A stretch of DNA of 64,000 bases, taken from positions 26,160 to 90,159 of the IMG/VR virus record IMGVR_UViG_3300023184_008808; one strand, written 5' to 3'. Below are positions 499-49,552 of the stretch, one piece after another. Each line of letters opens with the position of its first letter. Positions within the stretch are counted from its first letter, which is position 1. Under the pieces are notes generated by a model that was given only the letters and a program-made list of their open reading frames with translations, searched no databases and was not told where the DNA came from. This DNA comes from a virus. The position numbers and the translations under genes were made by a program.

Positions 499-1233
499 AT
501 GTCTAAGCAAAGATCTAAATCTGCCAAATCTTCCAAGGTTGAAAAACCAACAAATCAACCTTCATCTGGAAAGAGACAGCCTTTTCATTTGGAATTCCTT
601 AACCAAGCACAAAAAATGGCTTGGGCAGCCTTTGATCAACACGATGTGTTGTTTTTATTGGGTTCGCCCGGAACAGGTAAGAGTCATCTTGCTTGTGCTT
701 TTGCCATAAGTGAAATTCTTGCTAAAAAGAAAAAGAAAATTGTTTTGACTCGCCCAATTGTTGAAGCTGGCGAGTCTCTTGGTTATTTGCCCGGAACTTT
801 TGAAGAAAAAGTTAATCCATATATGTTGCCACTTTTTGATTGTATGGATCGTTGTTTGGGCACTGAAGGTCCGCAAAGAGAAATAGTAAATAAAAGTGTG
901 GAATTAGCTCCTATTGCATACATGAGGGGACGCACTTTCCACGATGCTGTTTGTATTTTTGACGAAGCTCAAAATGCAACATTTAATCAATTGAAATTGT
1001 TTCTCAGTCGCTTTGGACAAAATAGTAAAGTTATCATTACTGGAGATCCTTTTCAAAGTGATTTAAGGCCTCAAGATCGTGCTCTTATGCAGATAGTTGA
1101 TAAACTTTCATCGTTAAAAGGAATTGGAATAATTAACTTTAAAGCAAGTTCTATCGTGCGTCATCCGCTGATTGGAGCTATTATGGAAAAATTAGAAGGA
1201 AAAAAGGAGGAAGATGGCACTTGTAGTTCCTAA
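499..1233 (+). CDS. phoH: PhoH-like P-loop ATPase
   Basis: PhoH family ATPase, 244 aa. Motifs in order: Walker A GSPGTGKSH (about residue 55), the family segment LTRPIVEAGESLGYLPG (about 84-100), GRTF before Walker B IFDEAQN (about 152-158), the ITGDPFQSDL sensor segment (about 180) and a C-terminal IVRHPLIGAI. All core residues are present, so it should bind and hydrolyse ATP. PhoH proteins are very common in large tailed phages; their role is unsettled (RNA-related helicase or phosphate-stress functions are proposed). The N-terminal 25 residues are Lys/Ser rich. The 3' end overlaps the next gene by 20 bases, whose ribosome site lies inside phoH. Confidence 0.93.
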   Translation: MSKQRSKSAKSSKVEKPTNQPSSGKRQPFHLEFLNQAQKMAWAAFDQHDVLFLLGSPGTGKSHLACAFAISEILAKKKKKIVLTRPIVEAGESLGYLPGTFEEKVNPYMLPLFDCMDRCLGTEGPQREIVNKSVELAPIAYMRGRTFHDAVCIFDEAQNATFNQLKLFLSRFGQNSKVIITGDPFQSDLRPQDRALMQIVDKLSSLKGIGIINFKASSIVRHPLIGAIMEKLEGKKEEDGTCSS

Positions 1234-15220: not shown

Positions 15221-16984
15221 ATGTTTAATTTTATTGATTTTCTGCATGAGCGTGATGACAATCTTTATATGAATTTTTTTGATATAATTATTGAACGCTC
15301 TGAATCAGAAATTGAAAATATTCAACCAAAAGATGGGCATTGGAAGAAGATTCAATCGGGCTTTGGTGAATATGTTTTCAATGTTGAAGGTGACGATTGT
15401 GTAATCTATGGCGTAAAGAATGACCCTTGTTATAAAGTTACCATTTCAGGCAATGATAATGATCACAACTATGGTGTAAGTATTGCTTTTACTCGTGGAA
15501 GCAGTTATTCTGATTATCGTGGAGAATTTGGTTCTAAGGTATTTGATGGTGTTCATAAGGCGATTTATGAATATATCAAGCAAAATAAGCCAATAGCTTT
15601 AAATTGGTCACCAATATCACGCACTTCTGTAAATCCTGTAACTGGTGCAATTACAAATCCAGAAGCTCGTTCTAAAGCTTATGAAATTTGGTCGATAAAA
15701 TCTTTATTCCCAGAAAAATATGTTTCTTTTAAGCCTAATCTTTGGATTAGTAGAGAACTATATGACAAGTTTTATGTGCCCCAAGGATTTCCAGCAGTTC
15801 CCAAAGATTTAACTTCCGAATCTACTCCGGGAAATAAGAATAAATTTCTTAAAAAGATGCGTGAGGAACATAATAATCCTGAAAATCGTCAAGCCAGAGT
15901 TCGAGCTTCTGATGCTGTTGATCAATATAGGGCAACTCGTGAGCGAGAAGAAGCAGAAAGACAGCGTCAAGAAGAGCAACGGCGGTTAGATCAAATGATT
16001 AGTGATCCTAATCATAATCCAAATAATTTAGCAGTTGGCTCAAATGTTTATCTTGATATTGATGAAAATAATTATCGCACTAAAAGTTTAAATAGTAATT
16101 TCTATACTTCTTATGAACTTAGAAATCATAAAAATTATTTTGAAGATTACAACAGTGACAAATGTAAAATATTAAATTTCAAAATTAAAAAATTTGATGA
16201 TAAGTTTTTTTTGGTTTCTACAATTAAATTTGCAGCAAATTTAAATGATAACTATGAATTTGATGTTTTAGTTGGAGATTTAAAAAAATATAGTTCAGAA
16301 CATGAAGAAGAGTTTAAACTCAAAGCTAAAGAAGAGTTGCAAAAATTTATTGATGATGCGAGATACAATCCTAACAATTTTAAAGTTGGTTCAAAAGTTA
16401 TTATGCAGCAACATGCAATGGCAGGTTTTGTTCAGCCTTTGTTGGGTGCAGTTGGTACGATAGAAAAAATATCATTTGATTATGATAGAGATTATTTATA
16501 CGCAGATATTATTTGGAATTCTGATGAATCATTAACTGACATTGCTCGTCGAACAATTTCTCAATTTCCTAAAGCAACCAAAATGAATATTTCTCAGGGA
16601 AGACTTCTATTGGCTACACCACAAAACATTGAAAAATTAAAAAACGATATTGAACAAAAAGATCAACAACTTCAAGTACGGCGTCAAGAAGAAGAAGAGC
16701 GTCGTCGTCGTCAAGAAGAAGAGGAAAAGCGTCGTCGGGAAGAAGAAGAACGCTTTCAGCAACGCTCTGCTACTCGTGCAGAACGAGGAGCTCAAATAGA
16801 TACTCTTGGTTTTTCTGTTGGTCAACAGGTTACTGTGACGGCTGGGCCTCATGCTGGCAAGAGTGGTCAAATTCGTGAATTTAGAAGAATGGAAACAACA
16901 TCTGGATCTCCATCAACTGTAGCTATAATAATAAGTAACAATACTCCATTTATTGTTAACACTAGACTTCTAAGGGCTAATTAA
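15221..16984 (+). CDS. Large putative internal virion protein with KOW-like C-terminus
   Basis: 587 aa from the ATG at 15221 (TTGGAG site); the earlier in-frame ATG at 15200 lacks one. N-terminus MFNFIDFLHERDD resembles the leader of four other proteins here. Residues about 60-150 contain a domain common in T4-like and jumbo phage hypotheticals (SGF-x-EYVF...GSKVFDGVHKAI...LNWSPIS), also seen in the 43002 gene. A charged coiled coil (about 215-245), two small barrel-like segments, an RRQEEEE-rich stretch (about 488-515) and a C-terminal KOW-like VGQQVTVTAGPHAGKSGQI follow. Catalytic activity unknown. Confidence 0.55.
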   Translation: MFNFIDFLHERDDNLYMNFFDIIIERSESEIENIQPKDGHWKKIQSGFGEYVFNVEGDDCVIYGVKNDPCYKVTISGNDNDHNYGVSIAFTRGSSYSDYRGEFGSKVFDGVHKAIYEYIKQNKPIALNWSPISRTSVNPVTGAITNPEARSKAYEIWSIKSLFPEKYVSFKPNLWISRELYDKFYVPQGFPAVPKDLTSESTPGNKNKFLKKMREEHNNPENRQARVRASDAVDQYRATREREEAERQRQEEQRRLDQMISDPNHNPNNLAVGSNVYLDIDENNYRTKSLNSNFYTSYELRNHKNYFEDYNSDKCKILNFKIKKFDDKFFLVSTIKFAANLNDNYEFDVLVGDLKKYSSEHEEEFKLKAKEELQKFIDDARYNPNNFKVGSKVIMQQHAMAGFVQPLLGAVGTIEKISFDYDRDYLYADIIWNSDESLTDIARRTISQFPKATKMNISQGRLLLATPQNIEKLKNDIEQKDQQLQVRRQEEEERRRRQEEEEKRRREEEERFQQRSATRAERGAQIDTLGFSVGQQVTVTAGPHAGKSGQIREFRRMETTSGSPSTVAIIISNNTPFIVNTRLLRAN

Positions 16985-33773: not shown

Positions 33774-34910
33774 ATGTTCACTTTAAAAGAAGCCTACGAA
33801 GCTCTTGTTGACAGAACTGAATTTGCTGTTAAGCAAACTAAGGATACTGTTTGTTTTGATTATATAATTGTTCTTTCTGACTCTTTTTTGCCAGAAGACA
33901 ATAGTGAAGAGGCTAAGCGAAAAGCATGGATTCGTCGCAATATGCGAGGAGTTACTTTTTGCTTGCATACGCAAGAAATATTATCATTACCTTTGCACAA
34001 GTTTTATAACTTGAATCAAAATCCTCAGTCAGCTTTTCACTTATACCAAAATCAACAAGCTACTATTTATGAAAAATTAGATGGTAGCATGATTCATTTT
34101 TATTTGCTTAAAGGTGATTTAGTAGCATCAACATGTCGCTCTATAGATACAGTTCAAGCCAAAGAAGCTTTGTCTATAGCACAAAACAATACTAAGCTTA
34201 AAAATGAAATTTTAGAGTCTATACAAAATGGATTGACTCCTATATTTGAATTTGTATCTCCTAAAAATCAAATTGTTGTTCAGTATAATCAACAACGACT
34301 TGTTTATCTTATTTCTAGAAATCGTAAAACTGGTAAATATATTTTTGAAGATAAGTATTCTGATAAGGCCAAGGTTTTCAATATTGCTTTTCCTTATATT
34401 TTTGATTTTTTAAACATAAAAGAATTTGAAGGATATGTTTGTCATTTTGAAAATGGCGAAATTCTTAAGTTAAAAACTCCTTGGTATGTTGAACGACACC
34501 GTGCTGTAGATTTTTTGATTAAGCCTCTTTATAAGCTTTATGAAGTTGCTCTCGATGGCTATATGGATGATATTATTGGTTTAGCTGCCGATTCTTATAA
34601 ACATAAATTAACTTTAATTCATGATGAAGTTCAAAAAGATATATTGAACCATAAAAAAGAAATACAAAACAATTTTGATAATTTAATTATTTCATTGGGC
34701 ACACAACATCAGTCTTTAAATGACAGGCTACAAGATAAAGCTCACAGAAAAAAGTTTGTTCAGTGTGTAAAGGATTCTAAGCAAGACATATCAATCATGA
34801 TGTGTCTATATCAAGGGCAAGAATTTGATAAAATACTGAAGAAAAAGCTTCTTGAAAATTATACTGCACAATATAAAGTAAAAATTTGGGAAGACAATAA
34901 TTTTAAATAA
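33774..34910 (+). CDS. T4 Rnl1-type RNA ligase
   Basis: 378 aa, similar to T4 RNA ligase 1 (374 aa). Motif I KLDGS with adenylated Lys101, motif III-like PIFEFVSPKNQIVV, motif IV/V EGYVCHFENGEILKLKTPWY. C-terminal helical domain as in Rnl1. Rnl1 reseals tRNAs cut by anticodon nucleases, together with a phosphatase/kinase. A HAD phosphatase (42345) and a 2H phosphoesterase (47794) are also encoded. Possible leaderless mRNA (extended -10 directly before ATG). Confidence 0.9.
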   Translation: MFTLKEAYEALVDRTEFAVKQTKDTVCFDYIIVLSDSFLPEDNSEEAKRKAWIRRNMRGVTFCLHTQEILSLPLHKFYNLNQNPQSAFHLYQNQQATIYEKLDGSMIHFYLLKGDLVASTCRSIDTVQAKEALSIAQNNTKLKNEILESIQNGLTPIFEFVSPKNQIVVQYNQQRLVYLISRNRKTGKYIFEDKYSDKAKVFNIAFPYIFDFLNIKEFEGYVCHFENGEILKLKTPWYVERHRAVDFLIKPLYKLYEVALDGYMDDIIGLAADSYKHKLTLIHDEVQKDILNHKKEIQNNFDNLIISLGTQHQSLNDRLQDKAHRKKFVQCVKDSKQDISIMMCLYQGQEFDKILKKKLLENYTAQYKVKIWEDNNFK

Positions 34911-38137: not shown

Positions 38138-39199
38138 TTAAGGAATATTAGCGATATCGCCAGAATCAGGTGTTAATATACCTCTGAGAGCTTGTGGGCT
38201 AATAGTATCACTTATGAATAGAACATGTCCATCACCAAATACTGCATTGCAGCCACCACTGTGAAAACTGAATGGCTCATCATTTGCACCACAGTTGTTT
38301 AAATTCCAAGGGCAAGTAGATGGACCGCCCAACGGAGTAGAGTTGTTGTTGATTTTGGCTTGAGTGCTGGTGGTAGACTGGTGAGGTCCAGAAACACCAT
38401 TGCCAACATCAGGTTCTCCCCATCGATAATTGTTCCTAAGCCCACTAGGAGATTTATCGATGCAATCAGCACAAGCATCAGCATAGCTGGAAACCATGAA
38501 AGGAGCTATTGATTCATGGTTTTTACCTGCGTCTTCAATAATGGCAACAGTATTGCTTGTTCCATCGATAACACCAGCAATGCGACGAGGACTCATTTTT
38601 GTGTAAAAAGCTGTATGGTTGGAACTACCAGCAGTAATTGCTACAGTAGGTGCAGCACCGTTATGCAAAGTTAAAAGTCCCGCAGTGCGATATGTTGCAG
38701 TTGTTGCTGGAGTGCTTAGAGTAGATCTAGCACCAGTATTGGGATCAATATCACAATAAGCCACAGGCATATAGTCTGCCTGACCATAATTCAAAGGATC
38801 ATCTTTACTATATCCATTGCTAGGACATGTAAAAGTCTTAATCTTGTTTTTATATGCTGCAATATTGCTAGGATGATTATATCGTAAATTGATGTTAATT
38901 GACTTATAGACAGTTTCTTGTTCGACTAATGGTAAAAGTTGAGTGTAGGTTGAATGGACATCCATCCAAGTAGAAGGCGGTGAAGTTGGTGAATTGCCTT
39001 CGCCACTTGTTGGAAAGTAACCGTAAATGCTTTCGAATGAATGTAAACCTAAACCTATTTGTTTAAGATTATTAGTACAACTCATTCGATTCGCAGCTTC
39101 ACGAACTTTCTGTACTGCTGGAAGTAGCAGGCCGATTAGGATGGCTATAATTGCTATTACAACCAGCAATTCAATCAGCGTAAAACCTTTTCTTTTCAT
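38138..39199 (-). CDS. DUF1559 protein with type IV pilin-like N-terminus
   Basis: 353 aa from ATG 39199 (GAAAGGG site). [21 protein letters not shown] is a textbook type III prepilin leader (cleavage after Gly, E+5), followed by [18 protein letters not shown] and a C-terminal DUF1559 domain ending [20 protein letters not shown]. This family is strongly expanded in Planctomycetota and is the clearest host marker here. Prepilin peptidase and pilin assembly genes are absent, so the product presumably uses host machinery. Minus strand, convergent to the YqgE-like gene. Confidence 0.93.
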
Positions 39200-39425
39200 G
39201 TGATCAAACCCTTTCATTTTGGTTTTAAATTCATTAGACACTTCTACATAGCCGATTATATTGCGAAGTAATATGTGTTTTAGACGAGTCTTTTGTGAAA
39301 CTTGTATGAAGTACTTTTATTGAACAATTATTGTTCAATAGACTTTTTTTATTATGTGTATTTTTAACTATTGGTTTTTATGAATTTAGCTTCTTATAAT
39401 TGAACATAATTTAAGAGGCCAGATT

Positions 39426-43001: not shown

Positions 43002-44798
43002 GTGAAAAGTTTTAAAAATTGGTTATCAGTGAATGGCGATTTATTTTGGGAAATGACCAATTTAAAAACTGCTGATACATCGCACATTCATTTAGAGCCA
43101 GTAGGAGAGGATTTTGACCGTGACAGTGCCGAGGAAGATTGCCGCTACGCTGTAGAGCGCAATTTTGATTATAGTTCTTTTTACGAAAATGAAGGCATTT
43201 ACGAATTTCCAGAAGATGATCCAGATTTTCAAACACCTACTGTAGAAATATGGGAAGAAGATCATCCTGAGCCTGAATCATCTGATTATGAAGATGAAGA
43301 AGAATTTAATTCTGCTCATGAAGAATGGACAGATGAGCGTGATGCCACCGAGGAAAATTACAATAGGGCTGTTTCAAAATGGGAAAGAGAAAAGAGCAGA
43401 AAAGAAGAAGCTGCTCAAGAAGCTGCTCAAGAAGCCATGCAATCAGATGTAGATGATTGCGTTTCTGAACAAGAGTCAAATTACGAAAATGAAGCCAAAG
43501 GCTTTACTCATAGTTTTAAACACGACGGAGATGATTTTAAGGTATCCTTAGAGAATGAAAATGTTCGTTTTGAAGGCAATACAATTGACAATGTTTATAA
43601 TGTGACCTTTAGTGGCCCTCAAGGTTACAGTTCTACTGGAAAAGCTGGATCTGAAGCTTCTACTATTTATGGCAAGCTAATTTTAGCAATTAAAAAATTG
43701 ATAGATGATCATGAAGTGAATGGTTTGTCATTTAGTCCTGCTGAACCTGCTATGCGTATCATGTATACTCGTTTTTATAATTCTTTTATGAAAGATCATT
43801 TTGTTAGAGTTAAAAGAGATTTGTATATCAAAAGAGAAATTGTGAAAGATATTTTAGAAAAAGCAAAATCTTCCAATCAATATGTTGCTAAGAACATTTT
43901 GTCGAATATTGCAGATGCTCATAGAGAAAATAAAAGGGAAGTTGATAAAGCAAAAGCTCAGAAAGTTGAAAAACGAATAGCAACTCGTATAGGACAACAA
44001 CTTATAGGACAGTTTGTTCCCTTATATGGGCGTGATAAGCCATTTTTGGTTATCGATTTCAATCCAACTACAGCTGTGTTTCAAGTTTCCGACCCAGATT
44101 CTTGGATGTCATTTAGCACAATAGGTCAAAATTTTTACACATTAGCTCTTCCTTTTTCAAAGTTAAAACCAGCTGATATGCAAAAAGATTTTCCTCAAAT
44201 GGTTGAATTGTTTGATTATGAAGATAAAGAATCTTTTCCTTTATATGCTTTAGCTAAAGCTAGCAACATTTATGGTTTTGATAAACCAGATAATTCTAAT
44301 TTTGCACAAAAAGTTAAAGACACTGTTGCAAAAATTCGCACATGGTATAATTCACCAATTAGTGATAACAACAATCAAACTCATAAAGATTTTATTCACC
44401 AGTCACATCCTCAAGTAGCAAAAGTTCTTGAAGATTATGCAAGGAAAATAGGAATTGATTTAAATACTTCTCAATCTTCTCGTGTTGCTCAAACTCCTAG
44501 TGTTGCTCAAACTCCTAGTGTTGCTCAAACTCCTAGTGTTGCTCAAACTCCTAGTGTTGCTCCTGCTTCTACACCAGCATTTTCAACTTCTGCACCGGCT
44601 TCTACGACTCCTTCAACACATACATTTGCTAATATTCCAGAACCATCATCATGGACTCCAGCAAGCCAACATATTTCACAGCCATATCAAAGTTCTCATG
44701 GAGACATGACACAAACTTCTCAGTTGGCAACATTAGCCCCCAATTCTGTAAGTGCCCCACAAGGTAAAGGCGATTTGCGTAGGCGGACTCAGAAGTAA
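43002..44798 (+). CDS. Large putative internal virion protein with capsid-targeting-like leader
   Basis: 598 aa, GTG start with AGGAGA site. N-terminus MKSFKNWLSVNGDLFWE|M has the leader plus LFWE cleavage-like site (residues 14-17). Then an acidic segment (about 30-150), a domain also found in the 15221 gene (YNVTFSGP...GSEASTIYGKLILAIKKLI...LSFSPAEP), a KRxIKREIVKDIL helical part, and a Ser/Ala/Pro-rich tail with four SVAQTP repeats. Likely packaged virion protein; activity unknown. Confidence 0.55.
   Translation: MKSFKNWLSVNGDLFWEMTNLKTADTSHIHLEPVGEDFDRDSAEEDCRYAVERNFDYSSFYENEGIYEFPEDDPDFQTPTVEIWEEDHPEPESSDYEDEEEFNSAHEEWTDERDATEENYNRAVSKWEREKSRKEEAAQEAAQEAMQSDVDDCVSEQESNYENEAKGFTHSFKHDGDDFKVSLENENVRFEGNTIDNVYNVTFSGPQGYSSTGKAGSEASTIYGKLILAIKKLIDDHEVNGLSFSPAEPAMRIMYTRFYNSFMKDHFVRVKRDLYIKREIVKDILEKAKSSNQYVAKNILSNIADAHRENKREVDKAKAQKVEKRIATRIGQQLIGQFVPLYGRDKPFLVIDFNPTTAVFQVSDPDSWMSFSTIGQNFYTLALPFSKLKPADMQKDFPQMVELFDYEDKESFPLYALAKASNIYGFDKPDNSNFAQKVKDTVAKIRTWYNSPISDNNNQTHKDFIHQSHPQVAKVLEDYARKIGIDLNTSQSSRVAQTPSVAQTPSVAQTPSVAQTPSVAPASTPAFSTSAPASTTPSTHTFANIPEPSSWTPASQHISQPYQSSHGDMTQTSQLATLAPNSVSAPQGKGDLRRRTQK
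44484..44561 (+). repeat. Four perfect 18-base tandem repeats
   Basis: Units of GTTGCTCAAACTCCTAGT at 44484, 44502, 44520 and 44538, then a partial fifth. They encode VAQTPS hexapeptide repeats in a low-complexity tail; identity implies recent slippage and possible length variation. Confidence 0.9.
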
Positions 44799-45377: not shown

Positions 45378-46328
45378 TCAATCTACTTGGTAAAAGTAAA
45401 TTGCTTTCAAAGGCTTTGGACTAACATTTATGTCAATTGCTTCTTTTATGAAAATAAGTATACTGTTATAGTTTCGATTAAGTGTCGGCTCTACTTCAGA
45501 ATAAGAAATATATTGTTTGGATTTTTTACCCCACTGCATCTGAATGCTACATGATCCTGTTGCATAAAACCAATCGGTATCATTTCCTGTACTTTCATTT
45601 TTATTTGTTTCTGATGTGAGATAGCCATTTGCACTTATCATTTTGTTTATGATTTTATAAATTTTTTCCCTATCTTCATTTACACAAATTTCTGGGGGTA
45701 ATATTTTTTCTCCCGGAGCGTGATTATTTAATACTGCTTTAAATTTTTGATTTTCTGCCCATTGCATCAAAGCCAATGTTGCTGATGATGTTTGAGGATT
45801 CATTTTTTTATATGTTGGGAAAGAAGTCATTGGGTCTATATCTTCTATTGTATTAGATTTTAGATATGTGTCAGGAGAAGCTACAGGAACAAAATAAACA
45901 TCTCTGTTATCTAAAAGATATTTTATTTCTGATTTTGTTTCATAATCTGTGAGAAGTTTGTGTATTATGTGCATGTTCATAAGAACTGGAAATTCTTCAT
46001 TGCCCACAAGACCTGAGTGAATAAGAACTTTGGGTTTGTTTTTTGCACCAATTCTAAAATAATTACATGAAGTGCCTTTAGTAGTTTTCCCATAAACGCC
46101 AATTTCAGTATTGCTCGGCGATTCTTGATGCCAGCGATTAAGTTGTTGGATAATGTGTTGATAACTTTTATATTGTTCTGTAGGCAATGAAATTGACTCA
46201 GTTTTTACAATAATTTTATGTTCAGTTTCAATTGGTTTAGTGATTTTTTGATTATATGTTGTAACTATACCGCCAGTAAGGGCGATAAAGAGAATTGTAA
46301 ACCCTGTCCTGAGTTTTGTTGAATCCAT
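45378..46328 (-). CDS. M14 carboxypeptidase-like protein with altered zinc site
   Basis: 316 aa. N-terminal signal/anchor helix (TGFTILFIALTGGIVTTY). KPKVLIHSGLVGNEEFPV (about 97-114) aligns with the M14 HxxE motif but Val replaces the His of HGNE (codon GTG); AVLNNHAPGEKILPP keeps the third ligand His, and YISYSEVEP may hold the catalytic Glu. Likely secreted; activity in doubt unless the neighbouring His substitutes. Divergent peptidases of this family act on cell-wall or gamma-linked peptides. Confidence 0.55.
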   Translation of the reverse strand: MDSTKLRTGFTILFIALTGGIVTTYNQKITKPIETEHKIIVKTESISLPTEQYKSYQHIIQQLNRWHQESPSNTEIGVYGKTTKGTSCNYFRIGAKNKPKVLIHSGLVGNEEFPVLMNMHIIHKLLTDYETKSEIKYLLDNRDVYFVPVASPDTYLKSNTIEDIDPMTSFPTYKKMNPQTSSATLALMQWAENQKFKAVLNNHAPGEKILPPEICVNEDREKIYKIINKMISANGYLTSETNKNESTGNDTDWFYATGSCSIQMQWGKKSKQYISYSEVEPTLNRNYNSILIFIKEAIDINVSPKPLKAIYFYQVD

Positions 46329-46349: not shown

Positions 46350-46826
46350 TTATTTACTTTTTCTCCAGCCTCCGCCATGTTTTTTATACCATTTAGCCGC
46401 TGCAGCGTTGCTGTATGCTGAAGGATGTACATCGAAGTGATTTCTGGCCCAAGACTGAGCTCTTGACCACAATTCAGGGTTGGTTGGCTCATTATTGCCT
46501 TCACGAATGAGTATGAAATCTTCAAAAGAAACAGTTTCTTTATGGCTTACAAAATTTGGCGTTCGACCTTTAGATTTTTCTGTTTCTTTGCGTTCAACTC
46601 GACGCTTCTGTTCTGTGGCACGCTTCTTTTCTTTTTTACTCATGCTAGTAGCCTCTTTTGCAGGACGGCATTTAGGATAAGCCTTTTGTTTATCGCCTTC
46701 ACGGCCTTCAGCAGAGGCTCCACATTCTGGGTGTTTGCCACCTTTGACTCTGGAAATATCAACCCAGCGTTCTCGGAACCATTTGCCTAATCCAGAATCT
46801 TTATAAACTTCATTATGATTATTCAT
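46350..46826 (-). CDS. Conserved phage hypothetical with DUF5872-like N-terminus
   Basis: 158 aa. YKDSGLGKWFRERWVDISR...GGKHPECGASAEG (about 8-45) followed by a long Lys/Arg-rich helix and a C-terminal ANAAAAKWYKKHGGGWRK; I recognise the opening from many large-phage hypotheticals (DUF5872-like). C-terminal segment resembles a small DNA-binding or structural module. Role unknown. Confidence 0.55.
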   Translation of the reverse strand: MNNHNEVYKDSGLGKWFRERWVDISRVKGGKHPECGASAEGREGDKQKAYPKCRPAKEATSMSKKEKKRATEQKRRVERKETEKSKGRTPNFVSHKETVSFEDFILIREGNNEPTNPELWSRAQSWARNHFDVHPSAYSNAAAAKWYKKHGGGWRKSK

Positions 46827-47155: not shown

Positions 47156-47770
47156 TTATCCTGCAGCTTGTACATATTGCCAAATTGTTTGTGCGTCCAT
47201 ATCTTCGCTTAGATGTTTTTTAACGGCTTTGAGATGATTTTTTAAAGACGCCTTGTCAATTACTTTAGCTAATTTAAAGGCGTCATCTAAATCTTTTTCT
47301 CGACCATTTGCGAATTTGATGATAGTTAACACAGCAGGATCGATAATCGGCACATTAAATCCGCCAATCATTGCGTTTGTTGCGGTTTGTAAAACATAAC
47401 GATTAAGAGCAGGATTTCCAACTTTCACATCGAGAAAATCAGCATCGAGTTCATGACAAGTAATACCACCAGATTCAAGTTCACGAGGCAAAATAAGTGT
47501 GCTATGGCTTAAGCCTTCTTGAGTAAGAGCTTGTTCAACCATTTGAATATTGGGGCACATAAAATCAACATCTGGTGTAATTGCACGGTTTACATAATGT
47601 GCAACAGCCATGCCACCGACCAAAACACAACCTAATTTGTGTTTGTTTACAAAATCAAATGCATTTTTTATTTTAGCCTGAGCAGTTGGGCTTTGCACTG
47701 CCATTTCGTGAAACAATGTTTCACTATCAAATCCTTCACGATCTAAAACCCATTCTGTAAATTTCTTCAT
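47156..47770 (-). CDS. Nucleotidyltransferase (AbiEii-like) with capsid-targeting-like leader
   Basis: 204 aa. Leader MKKFTEWVLDREGFDSETLFHE|M (LFHE site, residues 19-22), then a minimal nucleotidyltransferase fold: LVGGMAVAHYVNRAITPDVDF (GG at 52-53, DxD at 67/69) and PAVLTIIKFANGREKDLDDAFKL typical of AbiEii-like NTases. AbiEii toxins modify tRNA or other RNAs. No AbiEi-like antitoxin partner was seen. Leader suggests the protein enters with the virion. Confidence 0.7.
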   Translation of the reverse strand: MKKFTEWVLDREGFDSETLFHEMAVQSPTAQAKIKNAFDFVNKHKLGCVLVGGMAVAHYVNRAITPDVDFMCPNIQMVEQALTQEGLSHSTLILPRELESGGITCHELDADFLDVKVGNPALNRYVLQTATNAMIGGFNVPIIDPAVLTIIKFANGREKDLDDAFKLAKVIDKASLKNHLKAVKKHLSEDMDAQTIWQYVQAAG

Positions 47771-47793: not shown

Positions 47794-48606
47794 TTACCCC
47801 AAAAGTGGTTCGACTATATACTCAAAAATGCCATATGTTCTTAAAATACTTTCTTTGATGCCGTATTGCTGCTTATATGTTCTATCATGTTGAATGCTGG
47901 TGCTACTTATAGGCTTGCCTTTTTTGCGGTCTGTAGTGATTATGTCGCCTAAATCTACACCGTAAGCATATCCAATTGTAATATGTGTTTTATAATTAGG
48001 AGGTAAAGGTGGAAGGTTCAATGCTTGTCTAACCTCTGATATATTAGGACAAGAAACGCTAAGTAAAGCAACTAAAGGCTTGCCTGAAAAATATTTTGCC
48101 ACCCCATAGATTACAAATGGTCGTGGGCCAATGTTCACAGGCATGCTAATCCCATTTCCTTGGGCATCAAAAAGAGGATTGCCGTTTGGAAGCTTTATTT
48201 TTTTTAGAGTTTCTATTTTAGAGGCTACATTTTCTTTATCTTCAAAAACATGTGCTAAAGCACTTCCAAGAGCCACGGTGATGTGTGACTCACCTGTATG
48301 CATTAAATCGGTTTGATGAGGGTTTTCTGAGGCTTTACAGGCATATCCGTTAAATGCTGACGAATCTGGACGACATTCAATGCCTTGTTTTGAAATTTGT
48401 CTGCGAAATGAAGATAAAATCCCTCCCAATCGAGATTCTTCTCGTTTGATAGGCACATAAATCATAGGAGGGCCAGAAAACCCCTTCCCGCTTCCATAAT
48501 TAAGTGTTTCTGATTTTCCATTTCCTAGGATTGGAGTTAATTCGCCGAAATAGCCCCAATCAGCCCCATCACTTTCGATGAAGCGAAAAAATTCTGCAAA
48601 GTTCAT
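47794..48606 (-). CDS. 2H phosphoesterase-like protein with capsid-targeting-like leader
   Basis: 270 aa. Leader MNFAEFFRFIESDGADWGYFGE|L (YFGE at 19-22). Two H-x-T motifs, ESHITVAL (His108) and KTHITIGYA (His208), 100 residues apart, mark the 2H superfamily (cyclic phosphodiesterases and RNA 2'-5' ligase-like enzymes), with two-lobe layout. Predicted to act on cyclic phosphate or 2',3'-ends of RNA. Adjacent to a leader-bearing nucleotidyltransferase in the same operon. Confidence 0.7.
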   Translation of the reverse strand: MNFAEFFRFIESDGADWGYFGELTPILGNGKSETLNYGSGKGFSGPPMIYVPIKREESRLGGILSSFRRQISKQGIECRPDSSAFNGYACKASENPHQTDLMHTGESHITVALGSALAHVFEDKENVASKIETLKKIKLPNGNPLFDAQGNGISMPVNIGPRPFVIYGVAKYFSGKPLVALLSVSCPNISEVRQALNLPPLPPNYKTHITIGYAYGVDLGDIITTDRKKGKPISSTSIQHDRTYKQQYGIKESILRTYGIFEYIVEPLLG

Positions 48607-48614
48607 GTAATTAT

Positions 48615-48845
48615 TTAGAGTTGTTCTGCAAAATCTGCAACATTTTGTGGGCTGTCAAAATGGGTACGAAACATATTTTCAATGTCCCAAGGCCCTATTT
48701 TAAATGCTTCGCTTATGTCTTCAATACAGTTAAGTTTTATGCCAATTTTTTCAGCTGCATCTTTAATGCAATGGTAAACAGTAAAATGGCGATTAAACTG
48801 ACGCTTATCGGCACGAATAGCCTCACATAGCTCTTTAATTTTCAT
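48615..48845 (-). CDS. Hypothetical protein, 76 aa
   Basis: Start ATG 48845 (AAAGG site); a GTG at 48854 is an alternative. Helical acidic protein with HCIKDAAEKIGIKLN. Eight bases before the 2H gene, so operon member. Function unknown. Confidence 0.5.
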   Translation of the reverse strand: MKIKELCEAIRADKRQFNRHFTVYHCIKDAAEKIGIKLNCIEDISEAFKIGPWDIENMFRTHFDSPQNVADFAEQL

Positions 48846-48875
48846 TTTTTGCACCTTTACTGTGAGTTTCCTGTG

Positions 48876-48962
48876 TCAAGAATCAAAGGTGTTTTTTCGA
48901 CCAACCACAAATAAAGCATTGGATTTTTCATTGTCTAGAATTTCCTTGACATATTCAACCAT
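48876..48962 (-). CDS. Possible 28-aa protein
   Basis: ATG overlaps the TAA of the preceding gene (TAATG); sequence begins MVEYVKEILDNEKSNALF. Coupled translation possible; too short to be sure. Confidence 0.3.
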   Translation of the reverse strand: MVEYVKEILDNEKSNALFVVGRKNTFDS

Positions 48963-49552
48963 TACTTTTTTTCCTTATTTTCTGATTTAGAATCATTCTT
49001 TTTTTCATTTGAACTTTTATTTTTAATACTTTCTTTTTGTTGCTTTTCTTTTCTTTCAAAGTACACGCTCCAGAGATTGGCTGCATCGTTTTTTTCACTT
49101 GGACCACTGCCTAAAACAGGGCCAAAATCAGTACGAAAATCTTTGTACTTGTTACGAGCAATATGAATACATGATTCTCTGGCTGCATTGGATACTAATT
49201 GATTGCTATCAGACAAAAGATGAATCAAACATGCATCATCTTTAAGTGCAAGTCCATAAGCCCAAGCGACAGCAACTCTATGATGGAAATCGCTGCTTTT
49301 TACAGCTATTTCATACATTTCATTATTGTTTTCTTTTTGTATTGTCTTTGCCATTTGCATGCAATATTGGCTAATAGCAGCAATTTGCTGTGCTGTATAA
49401 GCTTGTTGTTGCTGTTGTTGAAATTGCTGGTTTTGATTGTCTATTTCTACCCGACCGGGTAGGTTTAGATTTTGCCCTCAGCCAGCCTTAGCTTTTTGCG
49501 GATAAAAAAACAATGCACTACTAAGCAATATAACTTTAAAAATTTTCATCAT
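48962..49552 (-). pseudogene. Secreted HEAT-like protein gene with in-frame TGA
   Basis: Starting at ATG 49552 with AGGAG site: signal peptide MMKIFKVILLSSALFFYPQKAKAG, ending exactly at an AKA-G cleavage-like site, then an in-frame TGA (49480-49478), then the same frame stays open through GQNLNLPGRVEID, a Gln-rich stretch and the body KTIQKENNNEMYEIAVKSSDFHHRVAVAWAYG...SNAARESCIHIARN. Codon by codon reading shows no other stop. So one nonsense codon separates leader from mature protein: mutation, sequencing error or stop readthrough. Body looks like HEAT-type helical repeats plus a Lys/Asn/Ser-rich tail. Confidence 0.6.

Follow-up and report, generated by a model that had tools for sequence, protein, structure and literature searches.

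In phage T4, a ten-residue tag can load foreign proteins into the head, but the natural cargo known for it is small. For packaging, the first ten residues of the internal protein IPIII are enough. Residues 4 and 7 of the leader serve targeting, residues 8 and 10 serve processing, and cleavage by gp21 follows L/I-x-E (PMC9026906). In the T4 record, the leader of IPIII is MKTYQEFIAEA and that of IPI is MKTFKEF. Among the 2H families, 2H-SAK is the 2H domain of the "Swiss Army Knife" (SAK) proteins and has an RNA-repair context. T4 also encodes Acb1 (57B, PF23474), an anti-CBASS 2H nuclease of 152 aa and the most thoroughly studied of the 2H enzymes that counter host defense, with the tetrad H44, T46, H113, and T115 (PMC9117128). 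Further 2H domains occur in injected polyvalent proteins, which are multidomain, fused to MuF or portal proteins, or solo forms without a tie to a T4-type leader (PMC5512222), and in large (jumbo) phages with 2H, RNA ligase, and nucleotidyltransferase (NTase) genes, where RNA repair is predicted and the usual partner NTase is RlaP (PMC7824862). Descriptions or predictions already exist for 2H enzymes in phages, for capsid tags on T4 internal proteins, and for multidomain proteins with injected 2H domains.

We analyzed a window of 64,000 nucleotides, part of a 90,159-base virus record; the DNA polymerase led to related records as long as 189 kb. It encodes a candidate 2H phosphoesterase with an N-terminal leader. 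The protein resembles Acb1 in its HxT/HxT tetrad chemistry but is 270 aa long and carries the leader. It has in common with the polyvalent proteins the idea of a 2H domain delivered with phage DNA, whereas here a single domain with a short leader occurs in a genome with an Rnl1-type ligase. Compared with the jumbo phages, which likewise combine 2H, RNA ligase, and NTase genes, the partner NTase is of the DUF2204 family, and no RlaP was found in the clade.

The candidate 2H phosphoesterase and its neighbors

The candidate gene (47794..48606, minus strand) was identified from the ORF list and a Pfam 2H-SAK match; the opposite (plus) strand over the same positions is full of stops. The initial annotation had reported two H-x-T motifs 100 residues apart, at His108 and His208, and this turned out to be exact. 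The first, H108-I-T110, lies at 48277..48285 (minus strand, context ESHITVALG) and the second, H208-I-T210, at 47977..47985 (minus strand, context YKTHITIGY). A hydrophobic residue follows each H-x-[ST] (HITV at 108 and HITI at 208), while an extra H-Q-T at residue 97 is poorer and lacks the hydrophobic context. A loose HxT pair arose in 215 of 200,000 shuffles of the same protein (0.1%), and the candidate was the single ORF with the pair among 1,013 non-overlapping clade ORFs of at least 120 aa, taken from the window's genome and its relatives. Since the shuffle rate predicts about one chance pair per 1,013 proteins of similar composition, the pair by itself is suggestive and not proof.

The Pfam model 2H-SAK (PF22547) matched the full-length protein with 18.8 bits (E=0.0021) and its core, residues 46-232, with 20.2 bits (E=7.6e-4), both below the curated gathering cut-off of 27 bits. 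Both HxT motifs align inside the match, which spans profile positions 28-119 of 124. It was the only relevant Pfam match, and nothing outscored it, whether another 2H-superfamily model or an unrelated family. Unlike the multidomain SAK proteins, the protein stands alone, with a capsid-type leader and a C-terminal extension of about 60 residues. On the motifs together with this sub-threshold match over both, the membership of the 2H superfamily proposed earlier is very likely, with the score under the 2H-SAK cut-off as its shortfall. That the pair is coincidental and the protein no 2H phosphoesterase at all is quite unlikely: the pair does turn up in shuffles, the Pfam score is sub-threshold, and the AlphaFold models were unusable, but the one relevant Pfam match is to a 2H family and covers both motifs where they are expected.

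The AlphaFold predictions, run on the single sequence without an alignment, had pLDDT values of 33.6 and 43.7, and the Foldseek list obtained from the better model was discarded as noise. No relatives of the protein were found in IMG/VR, GenBank phages, plasmids, or GTDB genomes, nor in the records of 20 phages sharing the DNA polymerase III alpha, by pattern- and filter-based searches that miss distant relatives; a PF22547 genome search likewise gave no signal for G000 itself, although hmmscan gives 18.8 bits. Two plasmid matches were rejected as chance, one of them being antisense to an annotated gene. The PF13563 2H family was absent from the clade, and a tagged 166-residue protein of the related phage G004 matched 2H-SAK weakly (14.9 bits), its second motif being YMT, with the His lost.

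The NTase gene (47156..47770, minus strand) lies 23 bp downstream of the candidate 2H gene on the same strand and encodes 204 aa with a leader of its own. Its catalytic signature, GGMAVAHYVNRAITPDVD (47564..47617, minus strand), is an intact Pol-beta-type GG-x13-D-V-D at residues 52-69, accompanied by a third acidic strand. The adjoining NTase of the initial annotation is thus real, but its AbiEii label is not: only DUF2204 (PF09970) matched, with 25.1 bits against a cut-off of 20.3, and AbiEii did not. The NTase had no PADLOC match, neither it nor the 2H protein matched a toxin-antitoxin or defense family, and searches for relatives of the NTase found none. Directly upstream of the 2H gene lies a 79-aa ORF without a leader (48615..48854, minus strand), with a weak sub-threshold NUMOD1 match.

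These three ORFs form a block between a pair of genes, for an M14 zinc carboxypeptidase (45378..46328, minus strand) and a DUF5872 protein, on one side and a gene for a 132-aa protein (48962..49360, minus strand) on the other. Both conserved flanks have orthologues in the related phage G003, 40% identical for the peptidase (G003:141822-142763) and 49% identical for the 132-aa protein (G003:145839-146273), and since neither the NTase nor the 2H gene has a counterpart between them, the site is a variable slot. The two genes might constitute a unit delivered as virion cargo in which, for instance, the NTase modifies tRNA ends or a protein and the 2H protein reverses the modification. Their 23-bp spacing on one strand, the leaders on both, and the lack of a G003 counterpart of the block that they form with the 79-aa ORF would fit such a unit, against which stand the absence of toxin-antitoxin or defense family matches for either gene and the fact that we know of no 2H enzyme that reverses nucleotidylation. 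We regard it as very improbable.

The DUF5872 ORF of the window (46350-46826, minus strand) has an internal leader-like stretch, VSFEDFILIREGNNE, and may be two genes or a rearranged form of the DUF5872 protein that carries the tag in G003 and G004. A leader-bearing DUF5872 protein elsewhere in the clade (L048:4555-5808) contains a probable intein.

An N-terminal leader in the window and across the clade

Leaders had been noted earlier on both proteins; they are present and recur across the clade beyond chance. That of the 2H protein, MNFAEFFRFIESDGADWGYFGE (residues 1-22; 48541..48606, minus strand), contains the candidate protease sites FIE11 and FGE22, and that of the NTase, MKKFTEWVLDREGFDSETLFHE (residues 1-22; 47705..47770, minus strand), contains FHE22. 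On the plus strand of the window, a 598-aa protein (43002..44798) bears the leader MKSFKNWLSVNGDLFWE with an x-E site at LFWE17, and a 587-aa protein (15221..16984) has the leader-like N terminus MFNFIDFLHERDD. The 598-aa protein is related to a tandem array in G007 (L068:4280-12785), where nine related proteins, encoded on one strand, have leaders of the MRFxEWLRIDEL type or MISFYDMWLRIDEL.

We scanned for the motif M-x(1-3)-aromatic-x-x-aromatic-hydrophobic followed by an acidic residue. It was present at 57 of the 1,063 protein starts but only 16 of the 4,616 methionines inside proteins (odds ratio, 16; p=2e-28, a value inflated because two records overlap and one phage has a tandem paralogue array). 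The excess at starts was present in each record alone, with p ranging from 0.02 to 7.5e-9 and standing at 0.0096 for the window's genome. Alignment of 66 tagged, otherwise dissimilar clade proteins gave the consensus MxxFKxWLxxxE, and positions outside the selection were also biased: K at +1 in 35 of 64 proteins, E, Q, N, or D at +2 in 49 of 64, W over F or Y at +3 in 40 of 64, and E at +8 in 32 of 64. Within the first 32 residues, each protein had about 1.4 hydrophobic-x-E sites, compared with about 0.5 further on, although the selection favored acidic residues in that first stretch.

The core common to the dissimilar clade proteins, aromatic-x-x-aromatic-aliphatic at residues 3-8, resembles the leaders of T4 IPI and IPIII, which likewise have aromatic residues at i and i+3, an aliphatic or aromatic residue at i+4, an early Glu, and candidate x-E cleavage sites. 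The leader of the 2H protein, M-x-F-x-x-F-F, has Phe instead of an aliphatic residue at i+4, and its sites FIE11 and FGE22 differ from the canonical L/I-x-E. Two other features set T4 apart: here the mature part is a probable enzyme unrelated to the internal proteins, and the gp21 and gp23 families were not found in these contigs. Terminase_6N, a gp21-type protease (PF03420), and a gp23-type capsid protein all failed to score above cut-off in the incomplete contigs, and the head module is probably outside them or too diverged. From the sequence likeness, we consider it likely that the leader is a capsid-targeting signal of the T4 type, and cleavage at the x-E sites near residue 20 is plausible. 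The virion delivery proposed in the initial annotation gains support from a leader that is common to dozens of dissimilar proteins and matches the T4 tag at the positions of importance in T4.

The leader could instead dock its protein onto some other structure of the phage or, as an amphipathic peptide, anchor it in a membrane, in which case the enzyme would act in the producing cell. The head genes and prohead protease that escaped recognition in these contigs speak for such a role, while the likeness to IPI and IPIII reaches the very residues shown to be important in T4, and the hydrophobic-x-E sites are enriched in the first 32 residues, albeit under a selection that favored acidic residues there; all told, we judge it unlikely.

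The tagged proteins of the clade include two polynucleotide kinases (phrog_505; AAA_33), a tRNA nucleotidyltransferase (PolyA_pol, 1.9e-24; phrog_2244), another nucleotidyltransferase, a C39 peptidase, ParB-like proteins, an ankyrin protein, and many proteins without a family. A leader-bearing, release-factor-like protein of G009 (L085:14571-15017) has a GGQ motif and an RF-1 domain (1.3e-20), which suggests that ribosome rescue may be a delivered function. Two other tagged proteins (L068:17367-18308 and L070:125-2296) contain the stretches LYHGT and VYHRT, which recall ADP-ribosyltransferases but are not backed by any Pfam match; such proteins would be a parallel to the packaged T4 Alt.

Possible roles of the 2H protein

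The window also encodes a T4 Rnl1-type RNA ligase of 378 aa (33774..34910, plus strand) with the motif EKLDGS (Pfam PF09511, 1e-16) and a 52% identical orthologue in G003. The ligase is untagged and lies about 13 kb from the 2H gene, in a different transcription unit of the same genome. HAD_SAK_2 was represented in the clade by one clear protein, in G008, without a leader.

The best reading of these data, to which we assign a probability of about 0.4, is that the protein is a 2H enzyme that is packaged in the capsid, injected, and directed at the 2',3'-cyclic phosphate ends of RNA. Computation established the ORF, the two motifs, the signature of the NTase, the ligase gene, and the leader with its recurrence across the clade; we infer the fold, packaging, cleavage, injection, substrate, and pathway. 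At head assembly, the leader would draw the 2H protein into the prohead core, where a phage prohead protease would cut after hydrophobic-x-E, FGE22 being the best candidate site. The mature enzyme would be injected with the DNA, alongside the co-encoded DUF2204 NTase, and in the new host its two HxT motifs would bring about metal-independent hydrolysis of RNA 2',3'-cyclic phosphate ends, the likeliest substrates being tRNAs cut by host anticodon nucleases. The NTase could then complete the opened ends, ready for sealing by the phage Rnl1-type ligase.

Of the roles raised in the initial annotation, the repair of tRNA ends is the one that we favor, because of the 2H-SAK match, the NTase partner, the Rnl1-type ligase in the same genome, and the clade's tagged kinases and tRNA NTase. 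Comparative genomics of jumbo phages predicts that 2H enzymes found with RNA ligases clear cyclic ends before ligation (PMC7824862). According to Iyer et al., on the other hand, neither the 2H domains of injected proteins nor their solo counterparts ever occurred together with RNA ligases, and an RNase or a nucleotide-signal role is favored for the injected domains (PMC5512222). Findings of our own also count against this reading: the ligase, though in the genome, is outside the 2H operon; the 2H-SAK-like protein of G004 lacks the second His; the 2H-SAK score is sub-threshold; the searches above gave no relatives; and the packaging machinery was not recognized in these contigs.

A delivered 2H enzyme might alternatively degrade defense signals (cyclic or 2'-5' oligonucleotides), with an action like that of Acb1 but from outside the Acb1 family. 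Acb1, which has a 2H fold, relies on the same HxT/HxT tetrad (PMC9117128); an enzyme that arrives with the DNA would be well timed against an early signal; and signal degradation has been proposed for injected 2H domains (PMC5512222). In BLASTP, the second motif region aligned with T4 Acb1, at chance level only. The Acb1 profile (PF23474) did not match the 2H protein at E<=10, while the positive control, T4 57B, scored 2.7e-60; the HxT spacing is 100 here versus 69 in Acb1 (H44 and H113); and RNA ends are what the partner NTase suggests, as do the tagged kinase and tRNA NTase of the clade. Because Acb1 is a different Pfam family, unmatched here, these results make it less likely that the protein is an Acb1 but not that it works like one. 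The removal of alarm signals put forward earlier thus draws no support from the Acb1 profile, and in its Acb1-like form we hold it to be a rival of somewhat low probability. Apyc1, which had been named as a comparator, is unsuitable, being a Zn2+-binding cyclic-nucleotide enzyme and not a 2H protein.

The protein could also be a delivered RNase, similar to Usb1/Mpn1, whose trimming or cutting of host RNA would produce cyclic-phosphate ends, so that it would be an effector of host takeover and not of repair. An RNase role has been put forward for injected 2H domains (PMC5512222), yet no Usb1-family profile matched the protein and the genome-encoded ligase fits repair better, so that this role seems distinctly improbable.

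Extending the repair reading to the clade as a whole, we can suggest only tentatively, and with some doubt, that these large phages pack a modular kit for RNA repair and translation rescue (2H enzyme, NTases, kinases, and release-factor-like protein) into their capsids by means of the T4-type tag, through which damage from tRNA-cutting defenses would be reversed from the start of infection, before phage gene expression.

Clade features, novelty, and meaning

Several other features were recorded in the clade. A DUF1559 protein with a prepilin N-methylation motif (4.6e-44) is conserved across it (window 38138-39241, minus strand; G003:136006-137073; G007:150582-151673). The DUF1559 family is typical of Planctomycetes and their relatives, hinting at a Planctomycetes-type host; a scan for DUF1559 relatives for host placement found none. 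Neighboring genes that by eye resemble the bacterial set of PrkA kinase, YeaH/DUF444, and SpoVR are conserved in the phages (L042/L043 in G003, L061 in G007, and L075 in G004), and in G003 and G004 a probable intein lengthens the SpoVR-like ORF. Another probable intein lies inside the P-loop of a PhoH-like protein (G003:76660-78426), while the PhoH-like ORF of the window (499-1233) is without the insert. G003 also has a tmRNA gene (L043:10666-11016, tag DETVHALAA) and a tRNA call with the anticodon CTA (amber; L046:4191-4264), and TAG is still the stop codon in about 15% of its long ORFs.

Among open-licence papers, we found none that connects capsid-targeting sequences with RNA-repair enzymes, and none that describes a T4-type tag either on a probable 2H enzyme or on so broad an RNA-repair-like set within one clade.

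If the tag recurs on dozens of proteins, the head cargo of uncultured phages would become readable from their genome sequence. The cargo list, which comprises RNA repair, a tRNA nucleotidyltransferase, kinases, peptidases, and a release-factor-like protein, would then, if true, predict the host defenses that these phages meet first, and it would provide naturally occurring enzymes that can be loaded into capsids. As to the 2H enzyme itself, whether an injected 2H domain serves RNA repair or the destruction of alarm signals would become a directly testable question.
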